NCBI GenBank assembly: GCA_021292105.1
Contig: CM037874.1
Coordinates: 16,102,615-16,166,614 of the forward strand
Origin: Anadara kagoshimensis
Taxonomy: Eukaryota; Mollusca; Bivalvia; Arcoida; Arcidae
Reading direction: 5' to 3'
DNA: 64,000 bases
Shown: positions 10,014 through 57,700 of the stretch, piece by piece
Layout: each line of letters opens with the position of its first letter
How positions within the stretch are numbered: position 1 is the stretch's first letter
Notes under the pieces: generated by a model
Told to the model about the DNA's origin: nothing
The model's input: only the letters and a program-made list of their open reading frames with translations
The model's database searches: none
Translations under genes and position numbers: made by a program

Positions 10014-10245
10014 CCTTTGTTGAAGTAATAGTGTAGAATCCTGCTGTCTTTATTACTGTGATTAAGTAGAATTCTTCTGAGTTTTTACTGAAGCCATAAT
10101 GCAGATTTCTGGGGTCTCTGTAGAATCTTAGAGTCTATATCGAAGAGATCAGGTAGAATTCTAAGGCCTTATTGAAATTCATCGAGTAAAATTCTAAGGC
10201 CTTTATTGAAGTGATCAAGTAGAATCCTTCTGTTTTTACTGAAGT
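10014..10245 (-). repeat. Degenerate 31-35 bp tandem repeat across the CDC45 stop codon and 3' UTR
   Basis: About seven imperfect units resemble GCCTTTATTGAAGTGATCAA followed by GTAGAATCCTTCT. The unit at the right end overlaps the CDC45 stop codon (10236-10238) and last coding bases. Some units carry TTTATT, i.e. AATAAA on the CDC45 strand, for example at 10202-10207 and 10049-10054. The array is therefore also a set of candidate poly(A) signals. Confidence 0.55.
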
Positions 10246-22930: not shown

Positions 22931-22983
<53 letters not shown>

Positions 22984-25900
22984 TTTGACTTACTGATGTT
23001 CCATAAGTTGTGAATTGCTCATAATCAAATATAAACTTTGTTCTAAAATATATGTAAATTGACAAACATTTCAGTAGAATAAAATTTGAGAATATTTCAT
23101 TTTAAATAATTTTAATTTATGTATTTAAATCACATTTAATAAATAAGTGACATGAAATTTAAAAAAAAAAGTGAAATAAGTATTTGGTTTTTATATTGTT
23201 AACAGTTGTGGTTTGATTCCAGTATAAGAAATGATAGCCAGTCCAACAATCAAAGATTGTTAACTTTTGGAAGGATAGGAGACTAGAAAATGTTGAAATC
23301 ATCAAGGTAAGAACTGGTTGAAAAAATTTATTTATTCAAACAATGTTGTATTTCCGAAGTTTCTACATAGTATGGCCTTTATTCAAAGGAGACTTTGTCA
23401 GCCACCTACTACCCTGAACAGATAGAGAATTTTTTTAATTTTTCTTTTTCCTAAAAGAATTAAAGTACAACCATATTTTAATGTCCCTTGATGACTCTGT
23501 TACCTCGCTCATTTCCACAATACATGTATTTTAAAGTTCTAAAATTTATTTTTTGTTTTTCTGTATTTATTTAATGTCAAACCCCTTAGTAACACTTAAA
23601 TTTCTTGAAACAAATGTTGGCAATAATTGAGGTTATACGGTATGTCAAAACAACTACCATTTTGTAAAAAGATCTACTCAATGATTTGCCCTACCTTTTT
23701 TCTTCCCATAAACGTCTTTCTCTTCTTTTATCTATAGCTTCATCATCGAATCTTTTCCGTTTTGTTGATCTTTCTGAACCATCACTGTCATTACCAGAAT
23801 CTTCATCAGACTACGAAACCAAAACACCCAAAAGTTATAACTGAAACGGGTACCAAATGTTCCCCAACTGGGAAATCTTATGTTTTTCTAACCATGTGCA
23901 TGATCACAATATGAGTAATCAATGATGCGTCTACTCTCCCAAGATTGTTGCAGTAAAGTTTCATAAAGATTGATTTCATAGTGGCAGACAAAATGTTGGC
24001 AGAAGAAACACTTCGTCTCCGACCACTGCGGTAGCTCAGTTGATAGAGTGCTCGCTCCGTAAGTGGGAGGTCGTCTGACTCAAGACTTGAAAGTGGGTAG
24101 TGACTGTTCTTTCGCCAAGCACTCGGCATTACGAAATGAAAGTTCAGTTCTTTCGGATGGGAATTTAAAATAAACGAGGTCCCGTGTCATGGTTGGCTTG
24201 GCACGCTAAAGAACCCTGTGGTATAATGCCATCAGCGCAACGCACAGGCAAAATTTCTGCACCTTCGCCTAAAGCTGGCGACGTCTCAATATAAGTGAAA
24301 TATTCTTGACTGGGACATTAAACACCATTACTCACTCACTCGCTCACTTCGTCTCCGACTTAATTTGAGGGATATAAGTGGAGAATAACAATGATGCATC
24401 ATGCTTTAGATGTAGATTCATTAACTCAGAAAAACTGATATTTTACCATTATATTGTGACTGTATCATACAGTCTTTAACATACTGGTCAGTGGTTCTCA
24501 GGTGAATTACATTTTACCTTTTAATTCACTTTGAACAAGCAGACTTTGTCAGGTTCAAGTGGCGAGAAAAAAGTCTTAAGACTGACACCACGTCAAATAT
24601 GATAACAAGAAATGTGTCTGATCATTTCAATAATCCTGGGTTGATTAGTTTCCAAGAGGATAATGCAGAAGAGTATTGTAGATATAAATACTGCGAAAAT
24701 AAAATCTAAATCCCAATAGAAAACACACATTTCTTTTTTCTCATATTCGATCAATGCCTTTTTTATTATTCTATTTGTCATAAACTCTGGACTTGATTCA
24801 AGAAACTGTCAACTTGGGCTCATTTGAAAACATTTGTACCCCTGAAGGTTTCTTAAACAACATAAGACGTCTGAGGTACCTTGGATATAACAGACATCAA
24901 CATAACAGCATAAGTTTCTTTTGTTTGAATGCTGTTGGAACCTGTCCTTTTTCGGTGGTTTTTCTTGGAATATTAAACATCCAGACAACTACAAGTCATC
25001 TGACCAGCACTGATTACAGCTCAACCCAGGATGTTGATAGTGGTTGGGTGGTCTAAATTGTTGGCTTATAGAATGACCAAACTCATCTGACCACCTACTA
25101 CATTTTCATCCCACTTAGGAAAATTCCCTGTATGAGTTTAGGGGTATTTTCTCTGTCCTATTCAATATCTAGTAATTTATCTGGCAACCTATTCTGAAAC
25201 TTTTTAACCTAAGCAGTATTAGATTTTTAGCCAGGTTTGGATATTTTAACATTAGTTAGTCTAAGTGCTTACTGATTGACACTAGCTAATGGTTAATAGC
25301 TAACTGGGGCTATACTAATTTTCTCATTAGAAACAGTTACGATGTACGTATATATACATGTTCGGAAAGGCCGACTTACCATTTGGTGACCTGCAATCAT
25401 TTTTGCTTGCAATTTTAGTATATCAATAGCAAATACGATTGAAATACTGGCAAGTTGGAGCCATGTTGGATAGATGAATAGCTTTTCAAATATCTACTGG
25501 AAAGTAACTATCCAACAGAAACTAGAACTGTCTCTTGAGAGCCAAATAACCCCCCTCTCTAAATTTTATGTTTTCCCACGACCTTGACCTTTTCAATATG
25601 ATCTTTGGACCATAAAGATTATTCATGAGCCGTCCAAAGCACTGATAAGATATGGCCCAGACATGATTTTACCCAGGCAGGCAGACAGACATATCCCTTC
25701 AATCTAGTTTGCTAGGGGTATAATTACCAGGAAAAAATAACTATCTATCAACAATAATACAACAGGACACCATAATTTTTTTTCAACACTACTATACCTC
25801 ATCCTCTCTGAACAAGTCATCGTAATCTGGTAAATTATCAAACTCATCTTCTTTCATTAACAGTTTAACTTGTACAGCATTGAAAATGTTGTGTACATCT

Positions 25901-28900
25901 ACAGGACGGTGACTGCAAATATAAAGACAGAAAAGTTAAACCTTAAAATACATGTACAACTACAAGTCGGTGACTGCAAATGTAAAGACAGAAAAGTTAA
26001 ACCTTAAAATACATGTACATCTACAAGTCGGTGACTGCAAATGTAAAGATAGAGAAGTTAAACCTTAAAATACATGTACATCTACAAGTCGGTGACTGTA
26101 AATGTAAAGATAGAGAAGTTAAAACTTAAAATACATGTACATCTACAAGTCGGTGACTGCAAATGTAAAGATAGAGAAGTTAAAACTTAAAATACATGTA
26201 CATCTACAAGTCGGTGACTGTAAATGTAAAGATAGAGAAGTTAAAACTTAAAATACATGTACATCTACAAGTCGGTGACTGCAAATGTAAAGATAGAGAA
26301 GTTAAAACTTAAAATACATGTACATCTACAAGTCGGTGACTGTAAATGTAAAGACAGAGAAGTTAAAACTTAAAATATATACAGGACAGGACTGTGACTA
26401 CAAATGTAAAATAAGAAAACCTTAAGATAAATGTAGAGTTGAGTAGAGTGAAGTCAATATATTTTCACTTATATTGAGGCAGTTCATGGATAGTTGTAAT
26501 GATATAAGAAATTATATAAAAATAAATCCAAATATTTTCTGGTTTACAAAATTGTACTTTCGGCTATAATTTATATAAGGTTAATTACTCAGGTCATCCT
26601 CAGGTCAATGGTCAGGCGAGCCTTTACCTCTAGGCAATTATTCAATAACGTACAGCCTGGACATTACATGATGTATGCACCTTTGTCTAATTGATCTTAC
26701 AAATCATGATGTTTGGTAAAAGGTTAGGTCATGCTCTTCCCTTCTGTTATCTAACAGAAGAGTATATAAGTTGTCGCATGCTAGATACACACACACACAC
26801 ACACACACGCATCATACCTGGATACACACCTGGACATCTACACACAGACACATCCACATACAGACACAGCACCATACACCATGAACTACAGAGGACGTCA
26901 GTTTACAACAAGAATAAATCTAAAGTACTATAAAGAACAGGATTTTCTCCTTGTTATTATATACACACATCCTCAGGGCTTTATCACAGAGTGGTGCCCG
27001 TGACCAGAGGACCTAGGGAACCATGGAACGGCGTGCGGACCTGGATACCACTAAGACGACGGCCATAATGTTACCAAAAATGTGAGTAGATACAGTTGTT
27101 TTTATCTTGATTTATCACTTAATTGCACCATTTTGGATATTTTTCTCTAACCTTTAACAATGAATGTGGCATTTGAATTTTTTTTTTTAAACGGTCCTTA
27201 TTTTTAAGTATCCATGCAGATGTCTGCATATTTTAAGCATGTGCAATGTTGTATTATTATTATTATCATCATTATTTTTAAGTGTTCTGGTTACGATATA
27301 GTTTAAATCCAGAAGTTCAATATGTTTATAATTATAATGGGAATAATTTTTCCATTTTGGTATTTTTGCCATATTTTAAACTTTTTTAAAAATTCATATA
27401 TAGAATTATTTCAATTTTTAAAATGAAAACAGAATGATGGCGATGTTAGAATTTACACGAATAATCATTTTTCATATTTCATAGATAAATATTACATATA
27501 CACGTATCATGTGGAAGTAAATTTTCCAGAATTATCTGATCCAAGAGTTGATCAGACATGATACAACGCATTCACACATTTATATACCATGTGGAAATAT
27601 AAGTATCCAAAATTTTCTGATTCATAATTTGATCAGACATGGTATAAATACACAAATATTTACACATTATTATTAATATTATTATCATTACTCATCGTTA
27701 TCATTGATAATACATTATATATCATGGATATTTGTAGTTTACAGAGTTCACATATAAAATACTCTGTTTTATTTGTGTAAACTTCCATCGCCCATTCGTT
27801 TTTTCTAATTTAGATTTTGTATTATACAATTATAATTTTTATACATATTACTCATAGAATTTTTTTCTTAAGTTTAAATAGACTTTAATATGCTAATGTA
27901 GATTTTTGTTTATTTTCTAAAGACATCTTACAAAATGGACATTTTCTAAATGCCACCTTCAGTTGACAAAAATAAATTATACTAATTTTTACCATTTTTT
28001 CAGTAAATTTTCCTAAGATTATTTGTTAAAAATGTAATATCAATTTACAAAAATAGTTATATAATAAGTGATAAGTTAAGTAACACTGTATCTACAATTG
28101 CCAAAATGGATTTCCAACGACAACAAAGAACCCAATCAACAACAACGACAACAAACAACCAAGACGACAAAAGACAACTGAAACAACAACTACAACAACA
28201 AGAACCACAACGAAAACAACAATAACAGAAGCAGAATTCCAGCACACCACCAACGACAACAACACCATCAACACCAGCATCCAGATATATTTTTTTCTTC
28301 TTTCAACTTTATTCCGAGATATGACCATTCACAAGATGGCAGATATATCCATTTTTTAAAAAGGCAGACGTAATGCCAAACTGGATCTCGGACATTACAT
28401 AAAATTATTATATTTTGTGGGTACCTCCACTTAATTTTTTTTTATATTTTAATATATTTGTGTGGATAGCACCACCAGCTATGACCACTATATTATGTGG
28501 AGTTTTATTTATTTTCATATATTTTTTGTGGACGACAATATCGGCCATGACTACAATTTAATGTGGACTATGTTTACCCTTTGTGCGCGATGCAACCATT
28601 AACTGTGGCCAACATTTAAAAAGGACTTGAATTGTGCGCGATACCACCATATATAATGAACATTACTTCAAAAGCATTACGGACATTAAATCTCGACAAT
28701 TTCTCTTCTTACTTTCTTGTCTCATCTATTTCACTTCATTTGTACTTTAATTATTTAAAATATATGTCAAAGAGATGTCGAAATGATTACACACAACATG
28801 CTTGCGACACTTTTTCCCCATTTTTGGCGTCTTTTATATATAAAAAATAAACCAAATACTTTCTATTCTCTACAAAAAATCAAATTATCTAATAATTTTA

Positions 28901-31900
28901 TTTTTTGAGAAGGGCATAGAACGTATGTAATGATATAAGAAATTATATAAAAATAAATCCAAATATTTTCTGGTTTACAAAATTGTACTTTCGGCTATAA
29001 TTTATATAAGGTTAATTACTCAGGTCATCCTCAGGTCAATGGTCAGGCGAGCCTTTACCTCTAGGCAATTATTCAATAACGTACAGCCTGGACATTACAT
29101 GATGTATGCACCTTTGTCTAATTGATCTTACAAATCATGATGTTTGGTAAAAGGTTAGGTCATGCTCTTCCCTTCTGTTATCTAACAGAAGAGTATATAA
29201 GTTGTCGCATGCTAGATACACACACACACACACACACACGCATCATACCTGGACACACACCTGGACATCTACACACAGACACAGCACAAGACACCATGAA
29301 CTACAGAGGACATCAGTTTACAACAAGAATAAATTTAAAGCACTATAAAGAACAGATCTCCTTGTTATTACTACATAGCCGTCCAGGGCTTTATCACATA
29401 GTGGAGGAAACCAGAATGGCTGGGGAAAAAACCAGCGACTTTGACAAACAAACTGATAAACTTTCTCACACTAGAATGTGCCCCGAGTTGGCCGATTTGA
29501 ACCTAGGTGGCCAGAGGTGCTGTGGTCCCTAACTATGCATTTAATCTCCTCAGCCACTGAGATCTATACATGTTGAGATTAAGTAATAAAGTCTTTATAT
29601 GTGAAAGAAAGAAACCCTAACATGAGTTCTGTCCTGAACTTTAATGATACAGTTGTGCACAGAAGTCTGATTTGTTTACTACAGTAAAGTAAAACCTGGT
29701 TTCTGGACTACTTTATCTGGTAATGATTTTAGAATCTCCTTCAATCTTTATCATGAAAATGCTTGTATGAAACAAGAATTGCATACAATCTATTTTAATT
29801 TTGCAATGTGTGTGGTATTTAGCCATGAAAGCCGATAAGTCCTTCAGAAAAGACTTTAAAAACCAAAGCGCCCATGTCCAATAGGGGTGACAGCCTAGAG
29901 AAACATCCCTGCACATTGCCCTATAAGCGCGCTATCCACCCAAAAGGATGTCTACGGAAAATATAAGAAAATGACCAATAGTCAAAATTTAAATTAATGA
30001 AAAATTGGTTAAAATTATTTTTTATCTTAAAATGTCATGTCAATAAATAGAGGTATTACTATTTCTATATGATAACTGTGATTCATAGCTAAAATTCAGT
30101 TCTATGTATTAGGGTTGGCCTGGTTAGTGGAAATATACTTTCTTTTCAGCCCAAGTTTGTGAAGGTCTCCTTTATATCGCCACTCACCTATCACAGATAT
30201 CACCACCACTCACCTATCACAGATATCACCACCACTCACCTATCACAGATATCATCACCACTCACCTATCACAGATATCACCTCACTCACTCATAACAGA
30301 TATAACCACTACTCACCTATAACAGATATGAAACCTAACATATTTTTCTGGCTACATATCACCACCACTCACCTATCACAGATATCATCACCACTCACCT
30401 ATCACAGATATCACCACCACTCACCTATAACAGATATAACCACTACTCACCTATAACAGATATAAAACCTAACATATTTTTTTGGCTACATATCACCATC
30501 ACTCAACTATCACAGATATCATCACCACTCACCTATCACAAATATAACCTCTACTCACCTATAACAGATATAATACCTAACATATTCTTCTGGCTACATA
30601 TCGTCACCACTCACCTATCACATATATAACCACCACTCACCTATCACAGATATCATCACAACTCACCTATCACAGATATCACCACCACTTACCTACCACA
30701 GATATCATCACCACTCAACTATCACAGATATCACCACCACTTACCTACCACAGACATCATCACCACTCGCCAATCACAGATATAACCACCACTCACCTAT
30801 CACAGATATCATCACCACTCACCCATCAGAGATACCACCACTCACCTATCACAGATGTAAAACCTGGCACATTCTTCTGGCTAGATATCACCATCACTCA
30901 CCTTTCACAGACATCACCCTCCACCACTCACCAATCAGATACCATCACCACTCACCTATCACAGATATAAAACCTGACACATTCTTCAGGCTGTAATGTT
31001 TCTACTACATCTATACCCCCTCCACAGTTGATCATTATAACATGTTTTATCTGTAAAGTCAAAATAAAATAATCAGTGTTAACATAAATACATAAGTACT
31101 GTAGTTGTACATTAATACAGTGATTTTGTTACATTTTTTAAAACACTACCCTTCTGCCTTTTAAATTAGGAAAACTTGAAGTTTTGAAATACAGCAAACT
31201 GTTTTTGACACGCTTGCAATAGCTTAAGATCCTAATTGCGAAGATGTTAAATTGTTACAACATCTAACCTTTTGTGGAAATAGACAACTACAGTCAAACC
31301 TGCCTTAAAGGCCACCTCTATAAAAGGGCCACCTGCTTATAAAGGCCAGTAGAATTGTATCCCAATTGTTCTTTATTCATATTATTTCAAGCTGTATATC
31401 AAGGCCACCTGCCCATAAAGGCCACTTTTACTAGTTCCCTTGGGTGGCCTTTATAGACAGGTTTGACTGTAGGTCTAATTTGCTTGTATATCACTGTATA
31501 TTTGGGAATTTGAATGGTGAAATAGAGAAATTTTAGTCATTTTTTACCAGGGGAAACTACCTTTATTTGGTAGTAAAAAAAATCACTAATACATGTATTT
31601 CATTTTCTTTCTAAAATATAACCACTACTGTAGCCCAGTTGGTAGAGTGCTCTCTCCGTAAGTGGGAGAATGGAGATTGTGGGTTCGAACTCTGACAGGA
31701 TATGACTCAAGACTTGAAACTGGGTTGTGAATGTCCTTTTGACAAGCACTCAGCATTATGGTTCTTTCGGATGGGAACTTAAGATAAATGAGGTCCTGTG
31801 TTGCAGTAGGTGTAGCACGAGTCGGGCCAACATTTTTTATGATGTCAAAGTATGCACAATTTTTTTTTCATAAAGGATGTTCTGTAGATCTGTATTTGAA

Positions 31901-39326: not shown

Positions 39327-39753
39327 TTCGACAATATCAATGTGTATTTGGTGTTTTCATCATTTGTTTCTGGCGCGTATATCCTCGAGAACACGTTTTG
39401 TTATTTTGTCTGTTATTGGACAAAAGTCAAGCAGACGAAATTTTAGTCCAATCAAATTTTGTTTCATGAATCTGTTAAACGTCGTAGTGGGGATTACCGT
39501 CAATTTGGTTATTGCCCCTGTTCGTAATAATGTTGTTCTGCGCAGATTCTTCTATTCGGGTTAGAGTAAGAAAAAGGTGCAAGGTGCTTGTCTAGACAGA
39601 TGTAAACTTCCTGTTTCGGTTTTACATGTCATAGGAAAAATATGACACATTTTCTATTTTTATCAAAACAATTACCAAAATTAAGCTAGATTCAACTGTC
39701 AATATTCAATACACTATATAGAAAAAGCAAAGAGAAAATCAACATTAGTAAAA
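39327..39753. promoter_or_regulatory. Bidirectional promoter interval between CDC45 and UFD1
   Basis: The start codons of the divergent genes are 427 bp apart. The interval holds two oppositely oriented CCAAT boxes (ATTGG at 39415-39419 and CCAAT at 39448-39452, centres 33 bp apart), a GGCGCG core at 39372-39377 that could be part of an E2F-like site, and TTCCTGTTTC near 39607 that could be an ETS-like site. No TATA box at a usual spacing is evident. Transcription start sites cannot be placed from sequence. Confidence 0.65.
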
Positions 39754-42700
39754 ATGGTAAGTTGTAAACGATTTTGAAGATTTTACTGGGTAAATAATTC
39801 ACATTTAGTTTAACAAGAAAAAAGAAAGCTTAATAATGGGAAATTCACAACATCTCTAGGCTTTCCTTCAGCATTTAAGACCTGCCATACATTTTAGGGA
39901 CAAAAAATAAATAAATTTAGGGGCAAATTCACAAGAGTCAGTTGGTTTTTACTAAATTTAACTCATTGTACTGTTGTATGCATAATCTTTAAGCCAAGAA
40001 CTTTTTAAACTATGGTTTTGTTTCTGAAGGATAGGCGGCACCTTCAGTCTGATTTGTCACGGTCCGAACTGTCTCTGATCTTACATTTATGTTAGTTTAG
40101 AGAACATTATCATAGCATTAAGACAATCAACAAAAATAATACGACTGAAGGTTTGACCGTAAAGAAATTTCAGCAGTCAAGCCTTTCAAAACCCTAATCT
40201 ATTTTTGCGAAATCCTGAATCCATTCAAATTGATTCATGTTGAAATCTCTTGAGATCCTGTTCTGTTCTTGTTTAAAAATTGCAATGTATTGCGGAAAAT
40301 TTCACATAAATTTGACACAAATCTTCATCTCACCAATATACGGATTGTTGTGTTGAATAAATGGACGTTTGAAATTTGATTGGTTTTAGAATTTTGTACA
40401 CATTATCTATGATGAAAAAGCTGCAATGTTTTATAAGTATGCCAGACGTTCCTTGCTTTGAACAATCATTAAATCTTCTATTTGTAGCAATAAAGCTACA
40501 TGGTGTAGTATATAAAAATGCACCACATACTATTATCTCACCAATATGTGTTTAAGTGAAATTTAAAATTACTCACTTTACAAATTGGCAACTGTTTATT
40601 TCAGTTTGGATTCCGTATGTACCAGAATGAAATGGGTCGTAATTTTAACCAGACCTACAGATGTTATTCAGTAACTATGCTTGCAGACAGAGAAGATGTA
40701 GAAAGAGGTGGAAAAAGTAAGTTTTGAATACACCATTGCCTTTTGATAGCATGTAATTTACTACTTATTTATAATTTGTTGTGATTATTGAGGATTTTTA
40801 AGGGTTCAGCAGAACTTCAGTCTTATTATATTTTAAAAGTAAACAAAAAATAGATTAAGATATCAAAAATTGTAAATCTTATGATGAGGATGGAGTTATC
40901 AATTATTGCATAAGGGTAATGAGTGGCTATATCAATGCATGATGTACATGAAACCAGTTTTCAACTTTTCAGAAACATGACATTTGATTTAAGAAACAGA
41001 GAATAAAGCTATGTCATAAAATTTCAAATTCAGATAATAGAGGAAATCAGTTTTCAAATTTTCAGAAACAGGTGATAGATGAAATTTAATTTCAGAAACA
41101 AATAATACTGTATAAGAAGAAACATTTGTGAGGAAGAAATATTTGTGATTTTCACAGTGACACTTGTACCACGATTAATTCTTCTCAGCCAAAATTTTGG
41201 TTTTCCTTGGTTCACTTTTCCTACAGTTAGAACCATGAAAATTTCTTACCATGAAATAGTTTAGAAGATCACAACCGCAAACATTTCCTAATATTTTTTC
41301 TTATACAGTAGATCAAATCAAATTTGAAAAACAGATCATTTGTGAACATTATACATTCACTTTTGGAAAATAGCCGACCGTTTAATGTTATCATGCTGCC
41401 CATTGATCTTGTAATCTGTTAACATTAGATTTCGCTTAACTAGTCCTACAGTTTCAATGGAATTAAATGAAATTTGGTTTGTTATGACCTGAATAAGTCC
41501 ATATTATAGATTTGTAATGCAGTTCAAATATTAATGGAATTATTTTCCTTTTACACTTAGATTTATTTCACACTATATGAACAACTTGGGACACTAACTG
41601 GTTATACAGTTTCGAGTGGTATGTGTATTATGTAATGCTCGGCATTACTCTTGTTTTATTCTGTATTATTTATTAATTTGTCTTTCTTATTTTAGTCATA
41701 ATGCCACCATCAGCACTTGATCAACTAAGTAAGTAGCACTTATATTTGTACAATTAAACTATATATTGAATGCACTAATTGGGTGATGTTAAAAGTCCCA
41801 ATGCCTTAAGTGTGGATAGGGCGGTGTTGAAAATATCTTCAGATGGATCTGCAAGGATGCAGGTGTATATATATAGTATTAGATACTTATTTTCACTTCA
41901 ATGTCAAATTACAATACCTAATATCAACACATATCGCGACACTGCAATTTGTACATTATCATGTAAAATGTATTCATCTTGGTCCTGATGAAGGCCAACC
42001 ACGCCCAAAAACTCGACCAGCACCATAATACCTACATTAAAAGTTTCAAAATATCAGAAGATGTTGGTGTTTGTCCCAATTATTATATATATTGAGTGCG
42101 GTGACAGTTCAAATTACCCAGTGATTTTGTTACCTTAAAAAAACTACCTTCTGTTTTTTAAATTGGGAAAATTTAAAGTTCTAAAATATAGCAAACTGCA
42201 TAATAACATGCTTGCAATAGGTTATGATTCTCATTGTAAAGATTTTATATTATGACAGTATCTAACATTTTATGGGTAAGGACAACTAGATTGTATAATT
42301 TGTATTTGCTAGTATATCACTGTTGTTTTGGGAATTTTAGTGGTCAAATTGGGAAGTTTTAGTAATTTTTCCCCAGGGGAAACTACCTTTATTCGGTAAT
42401 TTTAGGCAAACGAAATCATGTACTAGAATCTTCCATACCACAAACCATAGTATTCAAAATGAGGTCCAATTTGTGCCATGAATGCTGAACTTCAAAGCTG
42501 TTAAAGAAAAATAATAATTTAACCAGGGTTTCAAAATTATGTTAACTTTTGTAATTGAAGGTCCAGGACCTTTTGCCTTTATTTTTGGCAGGTCTCACAT
42601 ACTGTTGAAAGTCCAATATCATCATTGAAAGGGTTTATGTGTAATTATGTTATTATGTAGAAAAGAAGTATTATCCTGGTAAAAAACTAGAAAAACTGTG

Positions 42701-45700
42701 AGCCACAAGCTCACAAAAAATACCCCCCCCCCACTCCCCCCACATAAAAAAAATCCATTGGATCAAATTTTTAAATAGGAGGTGCACATTTACATTATAT
42801 CACAAAGATTGTGTGAAAGTTTCATGAAAATCCATTGAAGGGTTTAGGAACAGTTGCGGATAAAAGATAGGTACCCTAAGGTGTAACGGAAGGACGTCCA
42901 CACAGACTGACACCCCTATCACTATATACCCCCCACTTTCTAAGTGGCAGGTATAATAACAGGTCCTGTCCATCTAACTTTTACAGTTTAAATTTCAAGG
43001 GTCTCGGTATAAAATCAATAGGTCCTGGACCTCGGACCCGATTTATCAGGACTTGTCAGATCCTGTCAGCTCATTTAAGATCTTTGACTTTATAATACCT
43101 GTTTATATGTTACCATGGTAATGTATCCATGCAATCTGTTGCCAGAAAACAAATGTAACACTCTGTCATTTAGCCCTTTTAGCCAATTGCTAATTTTTTA
43201 TGATTTCTGGCTCTAAATAAAAGCTATTGGCTAATATGTTTGCTCTGAAATTTTTATCAATTTCTTTGTGATGCAGACGAAAATCACTAATTGTTTTCTT
43301 AATTTTTAAGTATGAAAAAATAATACAAGCTTGTTGTTAATAAGACTCTCTTAGAGGAACCACCAGTACATTTCAGACATTTTTGTTGCTTTTCTTAATT
43401 TTTCTGACTTTGTAACATGTAAATTGACTCCTACATTTTAAAACTGGCTAATCTTTTGGCTTAAACTTGAGAGCCAGAGATAACCCTGCTGTCTAAACTT
43501 AACTTTCATTTTAATTACTTCAGCACGTCTCCACATACAGTATCCAATGTTGTTTAAATTGTCCAATAAAAAGAAGAGTAGAGACACACATTGTGGTGTG
43601 TTGGAGTTTGTCGCTGATGAAGGGCGTATTTATATACCATACTGGGTAAGTCAGCTTGATACATTGATGTATGGGAAATAGTTTACCATATTTATATACC
43701 ATACTGGGTGAGTCAACTTGATACATTGATATATGGGAAATAGTTTACCATATTTATATACCATACTGGGTAAGTCAACTTGATACATTGATATATGGGA
43801 AATAGTTTACCATATTTATATACCATACTGGGTAAGTCAACTTGATACATTGATATATTGGAAATAGTTTACCGTATTTATATACCATACTGGGTAAGTC
43901 AACTTGATACATTGATATATTGGAAATAGTTTACCGTATTTATATACCATACTGGGTAAGTCAACTTGATACATTGATATATGGGAAATAGTTTACCATA
44001 TTTATATACCATACTGGGTAAGTCAACTTGATACATTGATATATGGGAAATAGTTTACCATATTTATATACCATACTGGGTAAGTCAACTTGATACATTG
44101 ATATATGGGAAATAGTTTACCATATTTATATACCATACTGGGTAAGTCAACTTGATACATTGATATATTGGAAATAGTTTACCGTATTTATATACCATAC
44201 TGGGTAAGTCAACTTGATACATTGATATATTGGAAATAGTTTACCGTATTTATATACCATACTGGGTAAGTCAACTTGATACATTGATATATTGGAAATA
44301 GTTTACCGTATTTATATACCATACTGGGTAAGTCAACTTGATACATTGATATATGGGAAATAGTTTACCGTATTTATATACCATACTGGGTAAGTCAACT
44401 TGATACATTGATATATGGGAAATAGTTTACCATATTTATATACCATACTGGGTAAGTCAACTTGATACATTGATATATGGGAAAAGTGATTAAATGGTTT
44501 ACCATATTTTTTGTTGAATCTTTTATAGACAGATTGTTTTCCACCAATATTATTAGGTATGTCCGATGTCATGTTAAATGTTTTTAATATTATATGAACT
44601 TTGTTTTATATGTCAGTTGGTTTTGAGATACATTAAAATGATGGGTTGTAATTATGATTCATTTGGAACTAGTTTAATCTATACATGTGCCATTGACTTA
44701 ATTCTCCAACCTTAGCCATGAATTGGTGGCCATTTTTGTTGATATCAATACTCAAAAAAATGTATCGATATATCATATCAATGATATATCAATGACAGCC
44801 TTAATAATGATACACTGGTAATACCTGTTCAACAGGTGTCTGATCCATTACCATAAATTATTGTTACAGCTCTAGACACTCATATGACCTGACAAAATTT
44901 TGGGGAGTAAATAGAGGGGCTATGATATACTTGTAATACTGATTCAGCTGGCTTCCAATTAAGGCTTCCAAGTGTACACATTATGTTTCGTGTTTTGGTA
45001 GTAAACATTTTCAAAATCTGTAAACAAACAATATACATAGTATGTAAACTGTCAATTGATACAGTACATATATTTTAAAAAAAAATCAAAAGATGCACTT
45101 TTTAGTAACAGAATATAAAAAGGCAGAATCTTTCTGTATTAAACCAAGAAGCAAGTAAATCATTAGTAGCAGTTATATACAGCCAAATCTTATGTTTTCA
45201 ATATATTGGTTTGGTGTAGTATCAGATTGTGCAATGTTTTGTTTAGTTGCATCCCTGTAAAAAATTACAGATTTTTTGTAAACGTGGAAGCCCTACTCCA
45301 AATCAAATACAGTACCATGTTAAACAGTTTTTGGTGTATCATTACACAGGGGCTTCTATAGCCTGACAAAATTTTATGGAGTAAACAGCAACAGATCTGC
45401 AATGGATCATACCATCCCTGATGAAGTTCAGAAGGAGAGAATCTTTTTGTTATGAATTTATTTTTTCTTTCAATAAGATTAAAATTATGTACAAATGTAC
45501 AAAGCATTTTGGCTAACCTACATCTTACAGTCCTTCCATCCGTCCAAAATTCTTGTCTGTGCAAATTCTCAAAAACTAAGAAGCACTTTTTCACGAAACT
45601 TGGTGCAAACTGCAAAGCATCAACATTTCTAGGGGATGTGCATATTGTTAACCCAAGTTGATTTGCTTATTTTCCTAGGAGTAATTGTCCTTTGAACCTA

Positions 45701-48700
45701 AGTCACAAAAAAGAACCTGCTAGCAGGGGATCCTAATACAGTGAATTTACTTGTTATATTTCTACAGCGATTGAAAAAAGGGTCTTTATATATGTGTACA
45801 TGCTATATAGCTGTACAAGCCAGTGGTAATTATTTTTGCCACCAAGACTTCTCAAGCCTCTTGTTCAGATATCCAAATACTTGTGTTGTAACATAAGTTC
45901 AAAATCACAATTGATCTTCAGTTGGAATCGGTTGGTGCTTTCGATGAGATTTTACTGATTACCTGTATTTAAGGATTGAATTTTGATTGTACTGAATTTA
46001 TTGGGTAATAACGTCAGTTGGTCACATGCAAATTTTTACAATCTTTCAATCCTAGGAATGCCACAAGGCACTAAATAGGTCCAAATAGGGCTACTTTCAG
46101 TGTCACTTGGCCTATTTGGCCTACCAAAGTTTCATCGTTCAATTTTAATGATGTCAAAAGAAAAGCTGCCCATTTATCAACTAGAAAGGAAACAATCAAG
46201 TGACATCATGGGTGAAAGGTCGTATGTAACCAACAAAAGTTATTGGTAAATATCTTCAGTTGCTCTCAAACGATTTATTGAAGGGAATTCAGTACAATTG
46301 TAAATATAATTGGTTAAGATTTAAAAAAAAATTATTGTGTGTTTTTGAATTAAGTCATTGAAAGGGTGGAGTTTTTGTTATGTTCTCTATATTATTAACT
46401 AAAGATAAGTTTTCCACCACATAGCTTAAGTCATGTCAGTGTTGTTCTTATAAGTTATCTCACTGATGATTGATACCAATAATTGATTCTTTCTGGTACT
46501 GGCTTCATCACTACTATATAATATCCTAATCTTATGTTTTTATTTACAGATGATGAGGAACTTGTTATTAAATGAAGGTGATTTTGTACAAGTTGAGAAC
46601 GTTTCACTCCAGACAGCCACATTCGCCAGATTTCAGCCTCAATCTGTTGAGTTTCTGGACATTACAAATCCCAAAGCTGTGTATCCTTATAAATAACTTA
46701 TTATTATTATTATAGCTGTGGAAGCGCGTTGCCTAGTGGTTAAGGCGTTGGACTCATGATTCGAAGGTCGTGGGTTCGATCCCTAGACCGGGCGATGTGT
46801 TGTGTCCTTGAGCAAGACACTTAATTTCACGTTGTACCAGTTCACTCAGCTGAAAAATAAATGAGTACCAGCAAAATGCTGGGGGTTAACCCTGCGATGG
46901 ACCGGCGTCCCATTCAGGGGAGAGTCTTGTACTCTCAGTCGCTTAACGCCACCGAAACAGGGATAAGCTTCGGCCTGATGGGCCTAATGGCTCGGGACAG
47001 ACTTTAACTTTTTTAATTATTATAGCTACTTGAGGGTAACTCGATGACCTTAGTTAGTCTGAAATAGAAGCTTGCCTTTAAGGATTACAGCATCTTTCTC
47101 CCCTTAGTTTGAACCCAACTAGGAACAGATTCTAATATGAGATAGTTTGTCAGTGTACTTGCCAATGAGATAGTTTGTCAGATCACTTGCCAAAGGTTGA
47201 TGGTTTTCTCTAGGCAAACTGGTTTCCTCTACCATCCCAGAACTGACCATCTTAAGTCCTCAACATAAATGAAAGAATCTTGACTAGGGCTTACAGCTCC
47301 ATTACTCCACGTTCACTTCAGTAGGTTAATTGTTTTTATTACAGCTGTATTTCACTTTTGAATTTTTGAGAATTTCCATATAGGTCATTTTATGGAATGT
47401 TTTTTCCTTTTAAAGTATCCAGTGTGTCCAGCTGTATCCTGGTATGGTGTTTTGTATATGAGTAGAATAATAAAGAACAAGACTGTATGACACTTTGCTT
47501 GTAATTACACAAAGGCACTTGGAGAATGGGTTCTCTGTAAATCTCTTATATGTTTTTATTTCATTTATACAAATTTAAAATTTAAAGTTACATTGTGTAT
47601 TATTAGTCAAATCCCCCCCCCCCCCCAAAAAAAATGTGAAAATGTAGTCTTTTTTAAAGTATTTTTTTCACAAAGTTGCTAAAATAGATAACTGTTTGAA
47701 AGACTTCCCTCAGAATTAAGTACATGTAGAAGCCAATGGTGATTTTTACTACCAGGAATAGAAACCTAGTCATTTGGAGATTGGATTCACTGTAACATCT
47801 TGTGTTTGCTTTTTCATTTTCTTATTTTCTTCCTTAACTTATATCAGATTAGAAAATATGTTAAGAAGTTTTGCCTGTTTAACAACGGATGATGTCATAT
47901 CTATAAAATATAATGAAAAGGTAAGAACTCCATACATTTCTTGATGTTTCTAGGGGTTTTTAGATACTGTAAACATATTTGAAATCACTTGTATTTATTT
48001 TAGAGGTACATGTATATGAAATTTAGACATATCCGTGTAGGTAACACATAACACATAATATAATTTTCAAATTTTGGTGTTTTTTAAATATGTATTATAA
48101 CACATTATGCATAATACTATTTTTCACTTGGCATTAAATTTTCGCTCAAAACAAACAACTCCGAAATAAGAGAAAATTTGTACACCACAAAAATAAATAA
48201 GTTTACAGTAATTGAATTCATCATTTTCAAGCATTCTGATTGGCTAAAAAGTTATTTCTTCATAGACATGCTTTTACCCAGACATTTTCACTGCACTTTC
48301 ACACATTTTGATTGGCTAAAACGTTATGCTTATTTCCTCATAGACCTGACTTTGTGCAAGATGGTTACCTAGTAAAATCATCCACACACTTCATTGTTGT
48401 TCACATTGAAGTAATTCGTTTGATATTTTAAATTTAAAGATTTAAGTTTAAATTTTTTTGTTTTTTGGTCTTTTTATTTATATAATTCAATTATAAGCAT
48501 TGGCCATTGCCTTTAAGGATTTGTGTAAAGTACAAAGTCTTCATTCAAGTTATTTCTCAATAGACCAAACAAAACTTAAAGGCAATGCTAAGTAATCTTG
48601 ATAAATCTTACTGTTCTGTAATAATGGAACATATGTTCCAGGTTTTTAATTAAGACACTTTAGGTAAAATCGCTTCCATTGCTTTTTAGCTCACCTGAGC

Positions 48701-51700
48701 CAAAGGGGCAAACTTTTGTGAGATGACATGGATTATAGCGGAATATTTGGTATAAATAATACCATTTTAAGAAACAAGTTCACAATGATTAACGTATCAT
48801 TTTGTCCTTATAGAACAGGAAAGTCAATCATACATCATAAAGTTTCTTTGCAGTATACTCAATTGGGAATTTTTCGCGTCAGTTAATTTTCATAATATTC
48901 ATTGAGAGAGGTATTGGCGTACAATTTTATTTTCCCGCTGTCGAATAGTGGTCAAGGCAAATGCAATAGGTAAATAAACATTTAAAAAGAAATATTTGTG
49001 AAAGTTAAATTTTCATGTTAGTGTACTTTCGGGAAATTTACGCTAAAATAAAAAAGTGTATAAATTTCTAAATTTACAGTCTTGTGTTTTTTCTTGTTTC
49101 TATGGTGATTTTATTTGTTTTTCAGGAATATGAACTTTGTGTATTGGAAACGAAACCTGACAGAGCTATATCTATTATAGAGTGTGATATGAATGTAAGT
49201 TGTATTTATTATTCTAACATGAACTGTGTTTTTCTTCATATGAAACATGAAAAGAGTCAGCTGTGTTAAAACAAACAGTATACCCATGGCTGTTCTGTTT
49301 TAATGACATATTCCTTTTGTTTATCTTATGACGCCGTGCTATGTGTAGCGAATAATGGTTGTGACATAATATTCAATCATAAAATCATTCATTTCAATGG
49401 TGGTAATCTCAACAGCTGAATTGGAACTGTTTGCAAATGGATAGTAAAATGTCCTTCCAAAGACAATTTCGCAATGTTTATTTCAATACTTTTTATCTAA
49501 GTTGTGTTAAAATTAAAATGATCAACATTTACCAATGGACACTGACAGGGCTCAAATTAGATTTTGAAACAGGGAAAAGTGACTTCTCCCTCAGCCAATA
49601 TTAGGGAGAAGTTTTTCAATACGGGGAGAAGTTTTTCCACCGCGAGTGAAATTTAAGTGGCGATGCATGTTCTCAATATGTTTGACTTCAAATGGGAGTA
49701 GTATCCCTACAGAAGACTTGCATATTACATAAATTGTAATATTACTTATTGAATCCAAATAAATCATAATGTAAATATCATAATAATTTTTTTTTTTTAT
49801 TTATTTTTTTTTTTTTGCTATGTGCAGAATTATTATATGTATAAGCTTGGTGTAGCAATACTGAAATTAATTAAAAAAAATTATTGTACTTAATATCACA
49901 GCACTAAATGTCTTAAGATATTTAAGATTTCAACGTAAATGTAAATACATGTACAATTTTCTTTAAAACATTATTGTTTTTTTAAATTTAAAAATTAACA
50001 ACATATTAAGAAGTAAAACTAATAAATGAAAAAAAAAATTAATAAATATATGCACCATTATTTTTGAGTTATTCCCCTTGTCAACCATGTGTTGATGGCA
50101 ACAAACATGGCTGCTGTGTCTGACTCCCAATTTCTAGAGATGATACTACTCATTTGCAATCATTCTATTAGAAAATGCTTTTATTTATGGATTCTTTGTG
50201 AAAAGGCAAAATTCTGTGAGGGTCTGTTATTTTTTAAATTTTTATACAAAAAAACGATCTACTATTTTGTTCAATACACCACATATCGCAGTTGGTAGAG
50301 TGCTCACTTGTATGTGGGAGGATGTGGCCGGGTCTGACCAAGATTGACTATGGGTAGTGACTCTGCATTTAGAAATGAAAATCCTTTGGAAGAGACCTTA
50401 AAAATTGATGCCCTGAATCATCGTAGACATGGCATGCTAAAGAATCCTGCCTACTCATTGCCCTGAGCCCACTGTCAAGGTTAAAACTTCTGTCGCTTCA
50501 CCCATAGCTGGTGACATCTCAGTATAAGTAAAATATCATTGACTGGGACAGGATAAAAATTGGCCAGATGACAATTTTTGAAAGAATATGTTAAAAAAGA
50601 CTTAATTTTCCATAAATTTTAGAAATTTGGCAAATAATGATTTTAAAATTGTGAAAATCTAGACTGTACAATGTATATGTTTGAAAAAATTCCAGGAATC
50701 AACTCACATACACATATTTAAAGTGAAGGATGTATGTTTCAGAGTTTAAAATATGTTCATTTTTATAAATCTCTAGAATGACTTTGTCTTTTTAATCAAT
50801 CTCTAGGTTGACTTTGCTCCACCAGTTGGTTATCAGGAACCCAAAGTTCAGAAGAAGATGGAAGAAGAGGATGTAGAAGCAGATGTATGTATAGTTTAGT
50901 TTAGTAATGGTGTTTAACATCCCAGTCAAGAATATTTTACATATATAGAAACTTTTCCAGATATAGGCGAAGATGCAGAAATTTTGCCTGTGCTTATGTT
51001 GATGGCATTATGCTTTAGGGTTCTTTGTTGTGCCATGCCTACCATGACCCTAGGCCTCATTTATTTTAATTTCTCATCTGAAAGAGTTGTGACTTTTATT
51101 TCTTAATGCCAAGATGTACTGTGTGTATAGTGAAACAATGTTACATGTACAATAAAACACAGGTTTAGCTCTGGCTTTCAAAAAATTTGAGCCAATGTTT
51201 AAATTTGGAAGCCAATTTATTTGTTAAAGAGACAGAAAAACTAAGAAATTAAAATTGATGAAAATGCCTGAAACAAAGTGCAGTAGAACTTCTTGAACTG
51301 TTTTTTATTAACAGTTTGTATCACTTGTTTTACTTTTTCATACATGTGTGAAAAAAATGGTGATCTTAGTCTGTTTCATAATGAAATTGATTCAAGTTTT
51401 GGACAGGTATGTTTGTTTTTGACTTTTGGGATTGTGATTTGGACATTGACTAGTATGTTTGTGTTTGACTTTTGGGATTGTAATTTGGACATGGACAGGT
51501 ATGTTTGTGTTTGACTTTTGGGATTGTGATTTGAACATAAACAGGTATGTTTGTAGTTGAATTTTGGGATTGTGATTTGGACATGGACTGGTATGTTTGT
51601 GTTTGACTTTTAGGATTATGATTTGGACATGGACAGGTATGTTTGTGTTTGACTTTCGGTATTGTGATTTGGACATGGACAGCTATGTTTGTTGTTGAAT

Positions 51701-54700
51701 TTTGGGATTGTGATTTGGACATTGACAGGTATGTTTGTGTTTGACTTTTTGGATTATGATTTGGACATGGACCGGTATGTTTGTAGTTGACTTTTGGGAT
51801 TATGATTTGGACATGGACTGGTATGTTTGTGTTTGACTTTTGTGATTATGATTTGGACATGGACCAGTATGTTTATAGTTGATATTTGGGACTGTGATTT
51901 GGACATTGACCAGTATTTTTGTGTTTGACTTTTGGAATTGTGATTTGGACATTGACCGGTATTTTTGTGTTTGACTTTTGGAATTGTGATTTGGACATGG
52001 ACTGGAATGTTTATGTTTGATTTAGACCATTTTTACGAACAGGGAAGGACTACTTCCCTGGAAGTATTGGCGTAGGGCTTAAAAGTGATTCACCAAACAA
52101 CTACTCTGACTTATCCGTTCGAGAAATGAAATAGTTCGTTAGATGCTTTAATGTCAAGATGTAATTAAAGTGAATTGTGTTGACTGCAAGGAGTATTTTA
52201 GTATCCAAGTAGTAAGAGATGTCCTCGTTGGTAAAGGCCGATGTTAGTTTTTATTTTTGTATAATTTGCAAGTGTGTATCAGTGCAGCGCAATAATATTT
52301 TTAATCCCAGTCATCGTTAATGATATAAAACACGACTGAAATTGTTTATGTATTTTGTATATTATTTCAGTGTTGTCCTGATATGTCAGATTTAGATTTA
52401 GCCTTCAAGGTAAGTTATAGACTAGTCCAAAAATGTTAAACATCACTGTCTAGTGATTTTGTTTGCGTTAAATTACTACCAAATAAAGGTAGTTTTCCCT
52501 AGGGAAAAATGACTAATATATCCCAATTTGTCCACAAAAATTAATTCCTTACAGTGATGTACTGAAAAATTAAATCTACATATGTACAGTTGCAATTGTT
52601 CTTGCCCACAAAATATCAGATAATGCCACAGTATAGTGTATTTGCAATGAACACACTAGCTATTGCCAGCATAACATGATGCAGTTTGCCAGATCTCAGA
52701 ATTTGAATTTTCCCAATCTTAAAGGCAGAAGGTAGTTTTTAAAAATGCTGTCAGAGTTGGATCATCAGTGATGTAAAAGGCAAATTTAAACAGTAAACAA
52801 CTTTTCAAGATTTACCAAGAACATCATTTAACAAAATATATATTAAAACAACTGAGGAAAAGCTCTTTCATGTAAGCACATCTCTGGGCAACTCTGTGCA
52901 GGAAATGATATTTTTTAAAGTTTTAACTATTAGTTTTTGTTTAGTTTCTTAACATTCAATCTTTAATTCTTACCGACTTTGATAAAAATTACCTTTAACA
53001 AATTACTTATGTCTTCAGCAAACAATAAAATACTACATTGTATTAAAAACTCGTAGTAAAATAAATATTTTATTATTTTATCACCTCAAGTGTATGCCGT
53101 TTTATGACCATTTTTTAACCACACCTGCATGTGAAAATTTGCTTAATGAATCCATACACAGGACATATTGGATTTCCACCTGTATTCACATGTGTATGTG
53201 TGTGTTAAGGATGAAGATAAGCAGGGGCCCAGTAGCCAATGGCTCCGAAAAATCAATTTTACCTAATTATTACTATTATAACTTCTTTTCTGAAGTGAAT
53301 TGGGCCGCTTACTCAAAATAGTGAATTGGGCCCCTTACTCAAAATAGTTAAGCTTCTACCCTGCACTGTGTATGCCATCAAATTCATTTGGGGGACATAA
53401 TTTGCATGGCAAACACCAAAATCTTCTTATAGACATGAATATTGATCATGTTGATGTTATCAATATGTTTTTAATTATTTCTGTAGGCTTTTAGTGGTGC
53501 TGGAAATAGATTGGATGGTAAACAAAAAGGAACAGAAGTATTCAAAGACAACACCACAATGGAACCACCTAAAAGGTAATAGGGAAGTGTTAAGTTTTTA
53601 TCCCCCAACAAGAAATTACATGTAGTAATGTCTTCTATCTTTATCCATGCATCACACTTTTTATGTGGACCAGGTCTCCAATAGCATCCATCATATATTG
53701 ATGAAAGGAATGATTAGTGGGAGGTTGTGTCTATTTTTATACACCCCACAGGTTATGTAGATGGAGATCACCCTGTCTGTCTGTCTGGTTGTCCATCCCA
53801 ATATCATGTCTGCTGCATATCTTTGATGTCTATAGATGGATTTTGATCAAACTTGGCTCAAATGTAAACCAGAATGAGACAATGTGTTGCATACCAAATT
53901 TATGTGCACTAGTCAAAGGTCAAAGTCAGGAGATCAATGGGGAGGGAAGGGGGGGGGTATTTGGGTCATGAGACAGTTCTTGTTTCTTGTTGCTTTGTTT
54001 CAATTCTTGTGTTTAATCATTAAAGTTGTAAAGTACTTAATAAGCTGATTTGTTATTTTAAAAAATAAGAATTTGAATTTTTAGAAACAAAATTAATGTG
54101 TGTGTTTCATTGAGTACATTACGAAAAAACAGTCAAACAAGTCTTGGTTAGTGCATGCCTCATATGTGGTAGACTGGGGTTTGAATCCTGGCCTACTCCA
54201 TAGGAAGCAAGCATTCTACCAACTGAGCTACCTTAGTGGTTTATGTTATATCAAGGTTTGTTTGTTATTTTAAATACATGTGTATGTCAACATCTTGTGT
54301 TGAGCTACCTTAGTGGTTTATGTTATATCGAGGTTTGTTTGTTATTTTAAATGCATGTATATGTCAATGTCCTGTGTTGAGCTACCTTAGTGGTTTATGT
54401 TATATCAAGGTTTGTTTGTTATTTTAAATGCATGTATATGTCAACATCTTGTGTTGAGCTACCTTAGTGGTTTATGTTATATGGGGGTTTGTTTGTTATT
54501 TTTAAATACATGTATATGTCAACATCTTGTGTTGAGCTACCTAAGTGGTTTATGTTATATCAAGGTTTGTTTGTTATTTTAAATGCATGTATATGTCAAC
54601 ATCTTGTGTTGAGCTACCTTAGTGGTTTATGTTATATCGAGGTTTTTTTTGTTATTTTAAATGCATGTATATGTCAATGTCCTGTGTTGAGCTACCTTAG

Positions 54701-57700
54701 TGGTTTATGTTATATAGAGGTTTGTTTGTTATTTTAAATACATGTATATGTCAATGTCCTGTGTTGAGCTACCTTAGTGGTTTATGTTATATCGAGGTTT
54801 GTTTGTTATTTTAAATACATGTATATGTCAATGTCCTGTGTTGAGCTACCTTAGTGGTTTATGTTATATCGAGGTTTGTTTGTTATTTTAAATACATGTA
54901 TATGTCAATGTCCTGTGTTGAGCTACCTTAGTGGTTTATGTTATATAGAGGTTTGTTTGTTATTTTAAATGCATGTATATGTCAGTGTCCTGTGTTGAGC
55001 TACCTTAGTGGTTTATGTTATATAGAGGTTTGTTTGTTATTTTAAATGCATGTATATGTCAATGTCCTGTGTTGAGCTACCTTAGTGGTTTATGTTATAT
55101 CGAGGTTTGTTTGTTATTTTAAATACATGTATTTGTCAATGTCCTGTGTTGAGCTACCTTAGTGGTTTATGTTATATCGAGGTTTGTTTGTTATTTTAAA
55201 TGCATGTATATGTCAATGTCCTGTGTTGAGCTACCTTAGTGGTTTATGTTATATCGAGGTTTGTTTGTTATTTTAAATGCATGTATATGTCAATGTCCTG
55301 TGTTGAGCTACCTTAGTGGTTTATGTTATATAGAGATTTGTTTGTTATTTTAAATACATGTATATGTCAATGTCCTGTGTTGAGCTACCTTAGTGGTTTA
55401 TGTTATATAGAGGTTTGTTTGTTATTTTAAATACATGTATATGTCAATGTCCTTTGTTGAGCTACCTTAGTGGTTTATGTTATATCGAGGTTTGTTTGTT
55501 ATTTTAAATACATGTATATGTCAATGTCCTGTGTTGAGCTACCTTAGTGGTTTATGTTATATAGAGATTTGTTTGTTATTTTAAATACATGTATATGTCA
55601 ATGTCCTGTGTTGAGCTACCTTAGTGGTTTATGTTATATAGAGGTTTGTTTGTTATTTTAAATACATGTATATGTCAATGTCCTGTGTTGAGCTACCTTA
55701 GTGGTTTATGTTATATAGAGATTTGTTTGTTATTTTAAATGCATGTATATGTCAACATCTTGTGTTGAGCTACCTTAGTGGTTTATGTTATATCAAGGTT
55801 TGTTTGTTATTTTAAATACATGTATATGTCAATGTCCTGTGTTGAGCTACCTTAGTGGTTTATGTTATATCAAGGTTTGTTTGTTATTTTAAATGCATGT
55901 ATATGTCAATGTCCTGTGTTGAGCTACCTTAGTGGTTTATGTTATATCGAGATTTGTTTGTTATTTTAAATACATGTATATGTCAATGTCCTGTGTTGAG
56001 CTACCTTAGTGGTTTATGTTATATAGAGGTTTGTTTGTTATTTTAAATACATGTATATGTCAATGTTCTGTGTTTTGTGAAATATTTAGTTATTATATTC
56101 TGTATAGTTACTTTTATTATTCACTGGGGGATTTAGTTTTGCTATATTCGCGGTTTGACTTTATAGCACAAAATTATATTCAAAGTGAATATTTTCATGT
56201 AACATTCATTAATCATAGACTGAAATAATCTGTACAGAAAATTGTTAACACTGGCCACTGGACTGCAAAATTTTATACTTGTGAATAATTAGAGTGTCTG
56301 AACTGGGAAATTTTTTCCCCGCAGAATAAAAAACTATACAGTATATATCAAGGCCTTTATTGTTTTCTTATTTAAAAATTACAGTAATATATAATACCTG
56401 TAGTAAAATACATGTACATGTGCGATATTTTGTCACCAAATGATGATTCCCACGGATGTTATAAGGCCCTTAACGACTAAGTGGTTTTAAATTGGCTCTA
56501 ATGGATCACAGCACCTCTCACTGTCTAACTCTATCTATTGTATTACAGTCTAACCTGTCTATAAAGGCCACCCCAGGGAACCAGAAAAGTGGTCTTTATG
56601 GGCAGGTGGCCACAGATTCAGATAATATGAATAAAGAACAACGGATATGCAATTCTATTAGCCTTTATAAGCAGGTTTCCCTTATATAGAGGTGGCCTTT
56701 AAGGCAGGTTGGACTGTATTTATATTTGTATTTCAATTTCTGTATTTATATTTGTATTTCAATTCCTGTATTTATATTTGTATTTCAATTCCTGTATTTA
56801 TATTTGTATTTCAATTTCTGTATTTATATTTGTATTTCAATTCCTTTATTATATTTGTATTTCAATTTCTGTATTTATATTTGTATTTCAATTTCTGTAT
56901 TTATATTTCAATTTCTGTATTTATATTTGTATTTCAATTCCTGTATTTATATTTGTATTTCAATTTCTGTATTTATATTTGTATTTCAATTCCTGTATTT
57001 ATATTTGTATATCAATTCCTGTATTTATATTTGTATTTCAATTCCTGTATTTATATTTGTATATCAATTCCTGTATTTATATTTGTATTTCAATTCCTGT
57101 ATTTATATTTGTATTTCAATTCCTGTATTTATATTTGTATTTCAATTTCTTTTTGTAGAGGAATACCTAATTACAACTACAAAAAAGGAAGTATTACATT
57201 TATACGTACACAGAGATCAACAGCCAATGAAAATACAGACGTAAGTCTTAGCTCAATGACAGTTCTGTTTTTTACACATTTATATCAAACTGTAGGGAAA
57301 CATTTATCTCCGTTAAGTCATAGAGGACTTGGTAATTGAGTTGTCTAAAGCACAGACTTGCGGACCACAGTGTCTCTCTGAAATCAACCTTTTCTCTTGT
57401 GTCAACAGAATGTCACTGGTGTCATGTTATCATACTGTATAAGAAGAAAGATTCACGGTGAAGAAATATTAGCAATTTACATGGTGGCTCTTGTAACACA
57501 GATATATCTTTCTGGCAAAATTTTCATCTCCCTCGGCACACTTTCCCTACAGGCGGAACTGTGAAAAGAAGATCAAAACCACAAAAGTTTTCTACCGCCA
57601 ATGTTTCTTCTTATACAGTAGTGTCATGGATGCTTTTATAAATACAATGTATAATGACTTAGCTGGTAAAAAAAACTTCTTAAAAACTGTCAGCTGAAAA

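Follow-up and report, generated by a model that had tools for sequence, protein, structure and literature searches.

We found tandem arrays that contain a true splice junction in both members of a head-to-head gene pair, CDC45 and UFD1, in a 64,000-nt stretch of the genome of the bivalve Anadara kagoshimensis (GenBank assembly GCA_021292105.1, contig CM037874.1, positions 16,102,615 to 16,166,614 of the forward strand; hereafter the window, within which all coordinates are given). In these arrays the end of an exon and its splice site form part of the repeated unit, and in the three largest the outermost copy holds the real junction. The author of a preliminary description of the locus knew of no named mechanism that covered the pattern. 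Tandem repeats across exon-intron boundaries have already been called mirages in the Adh3, globin, troponin C and PGBD5 genes of amphioxus (PMC3087553, PMC3902484), and the arrays described here add cases from another animal genome to that known kind. They are also frequent in the genes we examined: 7 of 11 carry at least one, two of the seven having been chosen for it, and nine cases were counted in all. The arrays probably began as ordinary tandem duplications of local sequence, the first unit of which lay by chance across an exon boundary.

Gene models were assembled for both genes. CDC45 occupies 10236-39326 on the minus strand (18 coding exons, ATG at 39326, stop codon ending at 10236, 563 amino acids), and UFD1 occupies 39754-57955 on the plus strand (12 coding exons, with an ATG-only first exon at 39754-39756, 300 amino acids); their start codons are 427 bp apart. 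Exons were placed by tblastn with human protein probes, to which the CDC45 and UFD1 proteins are 50% and 62% identical, and boundaries were set by reading frame and GT-AG. Both reading frames close, 28/28 introns are GT-AG, and the assembled proteins match the Pfam families CDC45 (2.3e-140), UFD1_N1 (1.5e-43) and UFD1_N2 (3e-36). A purpose-written spliced protein-to-genome aligner re-found all internal boundaries in both genes except the 3-nt first exon of UFD1, and matched 17 of 18 CDC45 exons and 10 of 12 UFD1 exons end to end; only that 3-nt exon and the two stop codons were missed. The exon boundaries that the preliminary description had called genuine are thereby confirmed. The G+C content is ~33%, the genome comprises 1.115 Gb in 36 contigs, and the gene pair was matched at one genomic place only.

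Arrays in the window were called with Tandem Repeats Finder (TRF), and junctions were taken from these gene models. At CDC45 exon 5 (25798-25912, minus strand), the acceptor at 25912 is the outermost copy of a 61-bp array of 8.0 copies (25892-26377), every copy of which holds a polypyrimidine tract, AG and ~21 exon bases; together with a degenerate copy at 26397, the array places eight decoy acceptors upstream of the exon. At CDC45 exon 4 (30956-31050, minus strand), the donor at 30956 is the outermost copy of a 26-bp array (30180-30992; TRF 30180-30968, 29.8 copies) with higher-order rows of 108 and 134 bp. Its units hold the final bases of the exon and GTGAGT, and in four copies 32-35 bases of the exon's terminal 40 are kept. 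At UFD1 exon 4 (43524-43645, plus strand), the donor at 43645 is the outermost copy of a 62-bp array of 13.8 copies (43627-44484), in which each unit joins the last 20 exon bases to GTAAGT and intron sequence, yielding 13 decoy donors. About 20-40 exon bases are included in these three units, and the earlier claim that exon bases and the splice site lie inside the unit, with the real junction as outermost copy, holds for all three. A further case, absent from the preliminary description, is a two-copy 30-bp tandem duplication (50757-50816, plus strand; copies 83% identical) that spans the UFD1 exon 8 acceptor at 50807, again with exon bases and the true splice site in the unit. When local copies of junctions were sought within 1 kb, they were present for 4 of the 56 window junctions, all four being the known ones.

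The internal structure of the arrays is that of tandem minisatellites. Aligned copies of the 61- and 62-bp arrays are most divergent at the edges and near uniform in the middle, which is the pattern of other minisatellites. Exact patterns of four units were matched against the 1.1-Gb genome, with exact matches alone being counted; the arrays at UFD1 exons 8 and 11 did not enter this comparison. The UFD1 exon 4 unit gave 14 matches, the CDC45 exon 5 unit 6, the CDC45 exon 4 unit 4 and a unit from the chaperonin gene HSPD1, described below, 12, and all of these lay at the gene from which the unit came. We therefore take each unit to have been born in place, with the exon side as its source because the exon encodes conserved protein. 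A dispersed satellite or mobile origin was rejected for the three large window arrays, whose exact patterns match nowhere else.

The fourth array of the preliminary description behaves differently. This 26-bp T-rich array of 17 copies (56714-57147, plus strand) abuts the UFD1 exon 11 acceptor at 57159 but excludes it, stopping ~11.5 bp short, and its consensus unit has no AG. Of the four arrays said to include or abut a junction, three thus contain one, and the fourth only abuts and lacks exon bases and the true splice site in its unit. It starts where a dispersed element ends (56718), another copy of which ends at 31289, and it sits at an element edge as much as at an exon.

Four other large arrays in the same genes, each 313-648 bp from the nearest junction, served as controls. 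Two lie in CDC45, a 172-bp array in intron 12 (16485-16938) and a 155-bp array in intron 8 (21589-22041), and two in UFD1, a 46-bp array in intron 8 (51400-52020, plus strand; nearest junction 350 bp) and a 77-bp array of 24 copies in intron 10 (54224-56074, plus strand). They were omitted from the preliminary description; any null model must include them. The 77-bp unit includes the end of a dispersed element with three copies in the window, so that first units also meet landmarks other than splice sites: this one takes in an element end, and the 26-bp T-rich array starts at one. Seeding in these introns is accordingly not confined to splice sites. Two further observations concern the same introns. 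The 46-bp array repeats a strong donor-like sequence, CAG/GTATGT, at which no modelled exon ends, and CDC45 intron 4 holds two 300-bp segments of 100% identity, 2.4 kb apart (26495-26794 and 28926-29225), indicating a recent duplication between the two junction arrays.

As the locus had been selected for the pattern, we turned to an independent sample, the chaperonins (PF00118), a family picked before its repeats were seen. The genome holds 74 PF00118 matches, 50 of them in the nine regions first fetched (eight genes, CCT5 twice). Nine distinct genes were modelled (TCP1, CCT2-CCT8 and HSPD1; 208 junctions), CCT6 having been added after the other eight were seen. CCT5 was counted once, leaving out its second copy (CCT_C11a), TCP1 was counted in its first-fetched, duplicated copy, and arrays with a period below 12 were not counted; chaperonin hits at C2:6896881, a pair on C19 and second copies on C7, C9, C16 and C18 lie outside the sample. 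The CCT6 model covers residues 45-489 after removal of a spurious 2-nt first exon. Some other first exons are doubtful, and the first two of CCT4 look spurious; without them the sample has 204 junctions, with 5 spanning arrays observed and 2.2-3.0 expected.

Junction-spanning arrays were present in five of the nine genes: at the exon 2 donor of CCT5 (82 bp, 4 copies), the exon 9 acceptor of CCT7 (77 bp, 2.9 copies), the exon 8 donor of CCT8 (64 bp, 2 copies), the exon 9 donor of HSPD1 (42 bp, 12 copies) and the exon 2 donor of TCP1 (304 bp, 2 copies). The HSPD1 array is the clearest case of the sample, each unit carrying the exon's final bases followed by GTGTGT. No spanning array was found in CCT2, CCT3, CCT4 or CCT6 among the nine modelled genes. 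Both 5′ and 3′ boundaries are duplicated in these arrays, two donors and two acceptors in the window and four donors and one acceptor in the chaperonin sample. The pattern thus recurs in unrelated genes, as the preliminary description had anticipated in spirit, and the idea that it is special to CDC45-UFD1 was rejected.

Two of the chaperonin genes could be compared between genomic copies. TCP1 has two 304-bp units in its first copy and one in its second (~94% identity), and the CCT5 82-bp array is present in both copies, with 4.0 and 4.1 units. These paired copies may be haplotypes or paralogues, so differences in unit number between them need not be haplotype length differences. An assembly or polishing artefact might be suspected, since long arrays are hard to assemble and several chaperonin genes occur twice on one contig. 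It is nevertheless extremely improbable as an account of the arrays, given the shared CCT5 array, the scattered substitutions by which copies in the window arrays differ, and the closure of both gene frames. Six chaperonin-family genes match at two places per contig, ~0.1-2.8 Mb apart, with three of the six pairs inverted; the two CCT5 copies encode proteins identical over 499 residues and have introns of different size. The paired copies are either uncollapsed haplotypes or recent duplications. Separately, a similar 145-bp tandem repeat occurs in introns of four chaperonin genes on four contigs (L039 7304-8119, L044 122-915, L054 5875-6765 and L057 2367-3906); it is a dispersed satellite, in contrast to the junction arrays with their local units.

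We then asked whether arrays span junctions more often than chance would have it, using as null the random placement of a single first unit rather than of the grown array. Within the window, random placement of the eight largest units gave 0.64 expected to span a junction against 3 observed (P 0.018), and the 19 merged TRF arrays with a period of at least 16 in the gene span gave 0.86 expected against 4 observed (P 0.008). Four of the eight largest arrays lie within 15 bp of a junction, against 0.99 expected (P 0.0099), and across score thresholds the window alone gave 3-4 observed against 0.7-0.9 expected (P 0.007-0.026). These random-placement P values are optimistic because the locus was chosen for the feature. 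A coverage and rotation test on all local duplications in the window showed no enrichment at junctions (P 0.16-0.37 over ten settings). In the chaperonin sample, 5 arrays were observed against 2.96, 2.55 and 2.18 expected at scores of 50, 100 and 200 (P 0.165, 0.099 and 0.054), a ratio of 1.7-2.3 that is not distinguishable from 1. With the single-unit TCP1 copy, and minus the two CCT4 exons, the count became 4 against 2.75, 2.35 and 1.97 (P 0.29, 0.20 and 0.12).

These numbers bear directly on a rival explanation, raised in part in the preliminary description, according to which tandem duplications arise preferentially at splice junctions, whether from R-loops, from nicks where transcription or the spliceosome pauses, or from splice signals prone to slippage. 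In its favor, every point estimate exceeds 1, including that of the chaperonin sample, the window counts, like the pooled counts given below, lie well above expectation, and the coding strand of the CDC45 exon 4 array shows a strong G skew (+0.75). We nonetheless consider it unlikely. The excess in the independent sample alone is not significant with either TCP1 copy, the window coverage test is likewise negative, and the end of a mobile element is included in the unit of one array and marks the start of another. Nor is the skew shared: the four arrays named in the preliminary description have coding-strand G skews of +0.75, -0.13, +0.13 and -0.16, while one non-junction array reaches +0.60, a pattern that gives no consistent signature of an R-loop origin. 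Preferential seeding at junctions is therefore not established, and the proposal that junctions initiate duplication was not borne out by the unselected genes.

Two results count against a reading of chance seeding with survival of harmless cases. Pooling all 11 genes gives 9 arrays against 3.82 expected, 8 against 3.25 and 8 against 2.86 (P 0.011, 0.011 and 0.0045), so that a real but modest junction preference is possible, with the window part of the pool preselected. The second concerns exons. Of 39 arrays with a score of at least 100, none falls entirely within an exon (1.97 expected), which is the direction predicted by selection; at a score of 50, however, the count is 2 of 73 against 4.72, a small depletion. 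The chaperonin sample is compatible with random seeding followed by survival of harmless cases, and leaves room for a modest junction preference.

We scored the splice sites in the array copies with weight matrices built from all donors and acceptors of CDC45 and UFD1 (28 each). The real donor of UFD1 exon 4 scores 11.29 bits, and 12 of 13 unit copies score the same; that of CDC45 exon 4 scores 9.5 bits, and among the 26 further sites scoring more than 5 bits there, 19 reach or exceed this value. At CDC45 exon 5 the real acceptor stands above its decoys (13.3 against 6.2-11.5 bits) with a matrix that includes it, and falls to 10.3, below the nearest decoy, when left out of its own matrix. Use of a decoy was modelled in 43 cases, 34 of them donors (21 at CDC45 exon 4, 8 at CDC45 exon 5, 13 at UFD1 exon 4 and 1 at UFD1 exon 8), and led to an early stop in 43/43. 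In a genome-wide search for a tandem donor pattern, a weak test, 18 matches were obtained against 52 for a reversed control, so that strong donors at close spacing are not overrepresented in general.

The strength of these decoys, together with the early termination predicted for each, is what might be expected if redundant splice sites were kept by selection, either as decoys for nonsense-mediated decay or as junction buffers. This explanation appears very unlikely to us. Homogenised copies would score high in any case, the real acceptor of CDC45 exon 5 tops its array in the matrix that includes it, units differ from gene to gene, and mRNAs of the amphioxus genes were reported as normal (PMC3087553, PMC3902484).

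The account that we favor instead is one of chance seeding followed by tolerance. A first unit straddling a boundary would arise by an ordinary replication or recombination event, and would then grow and be homogenised as a minisatellite. As the sampled genes are rich in both tandem arrays and junctions, some first units would be expected to fall across a junction. Such a duplication may survive, since its outermost copy leaves the exon end and splice site where they were and the extra copies go out with the intron, whereas arrays inside exons would be removed by selection. Decoy copies would then be passengers, correct splicing presumably using the exon-proximal copy.

Comparison with described systems supports the assignment to mirages. 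In amphioxus, mirages are reported at both boundaries, with units of 10-160 bp, extra AG and GT signals, haplotype length differences and normal mRNAs, and have been proposed as a route to new introns (PMC3087553, PMC3902484). Like those in the globins BflGb6 and BflGb9, the arrays described here are minisatellite-like tandem copies of an intron-exon boundary, 5′ as well as 3′, but they reach ~30 units, against 3-6 in the amphioxus globin case. They also come from a different genome, in which nine cases in 11 genes were counted against an explicit null. Among the matches listed in the open-licence literature, mirages are named only in amphioxus, and matches listed for minisatellites, boundaries and tandem duplication include no boundary-spanning repeats in molluscs.

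Related architectures are described in other organisms. Turri reportedly described, in 1995, a minisatellite with multiple splice donors in human IFI6 (6-16). Its units likewise supply extra donors, two downstream units being used in mRNA, whereas the donors here are predicted only (PMC4526556). A human 31-bp variable number tandem repeat in CBS similarly sits at the exon 13-intron 13 boundary, but is one polymorphic locus, listed with reduced activity and raised homocysteine (PMC1395315). Human segmental duplications also carry minisatellite-size repeats at exon-intron boundaries, with 27 intron modifications kept after inspection; those cases come from recently duplicated primate genes and were chosen because their repeats vary, and the repeats may be retained in or spliced out of the transcript (PMC2812944). 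In potato RdRp and in ATP2A1, a segment carrying splice signals is present in tandem and a new intron arises, whereas our arrays lie at intron edges (PMC4974935).

Two features of the window lie apart from these arrays. The gene pair is flanked by two long minus-strand open reading frames with Mab-21 domains (175-2145 and 61417-63444), which we take to belong to the cGAS-like family. A 49-bp AG microsatellite (22933-22981) begins ~12 bp into the intron past the CDC45 exon 7 donor.

A bolder proposal would make exon boundaries roughly two- to four-fold hot spots for tandem duplication, such that a majority of genes with several exons would hold one mirage or more, and duplicated splice modules would be supplied for new introns or alternative exon ends; we regard this as unlikely. 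For any junction-specific duplication mechanism, the chaperonin genes now provide a first measured estimate from an unselected sample, 1.7-2.3 times random and not distinguishable from 1. Finally, the arrays of 12 and 14 copies, in each of which strong and almost identical donors stand beside one real exon, offer a test bed for how splicing chooses the exon-proximal site.

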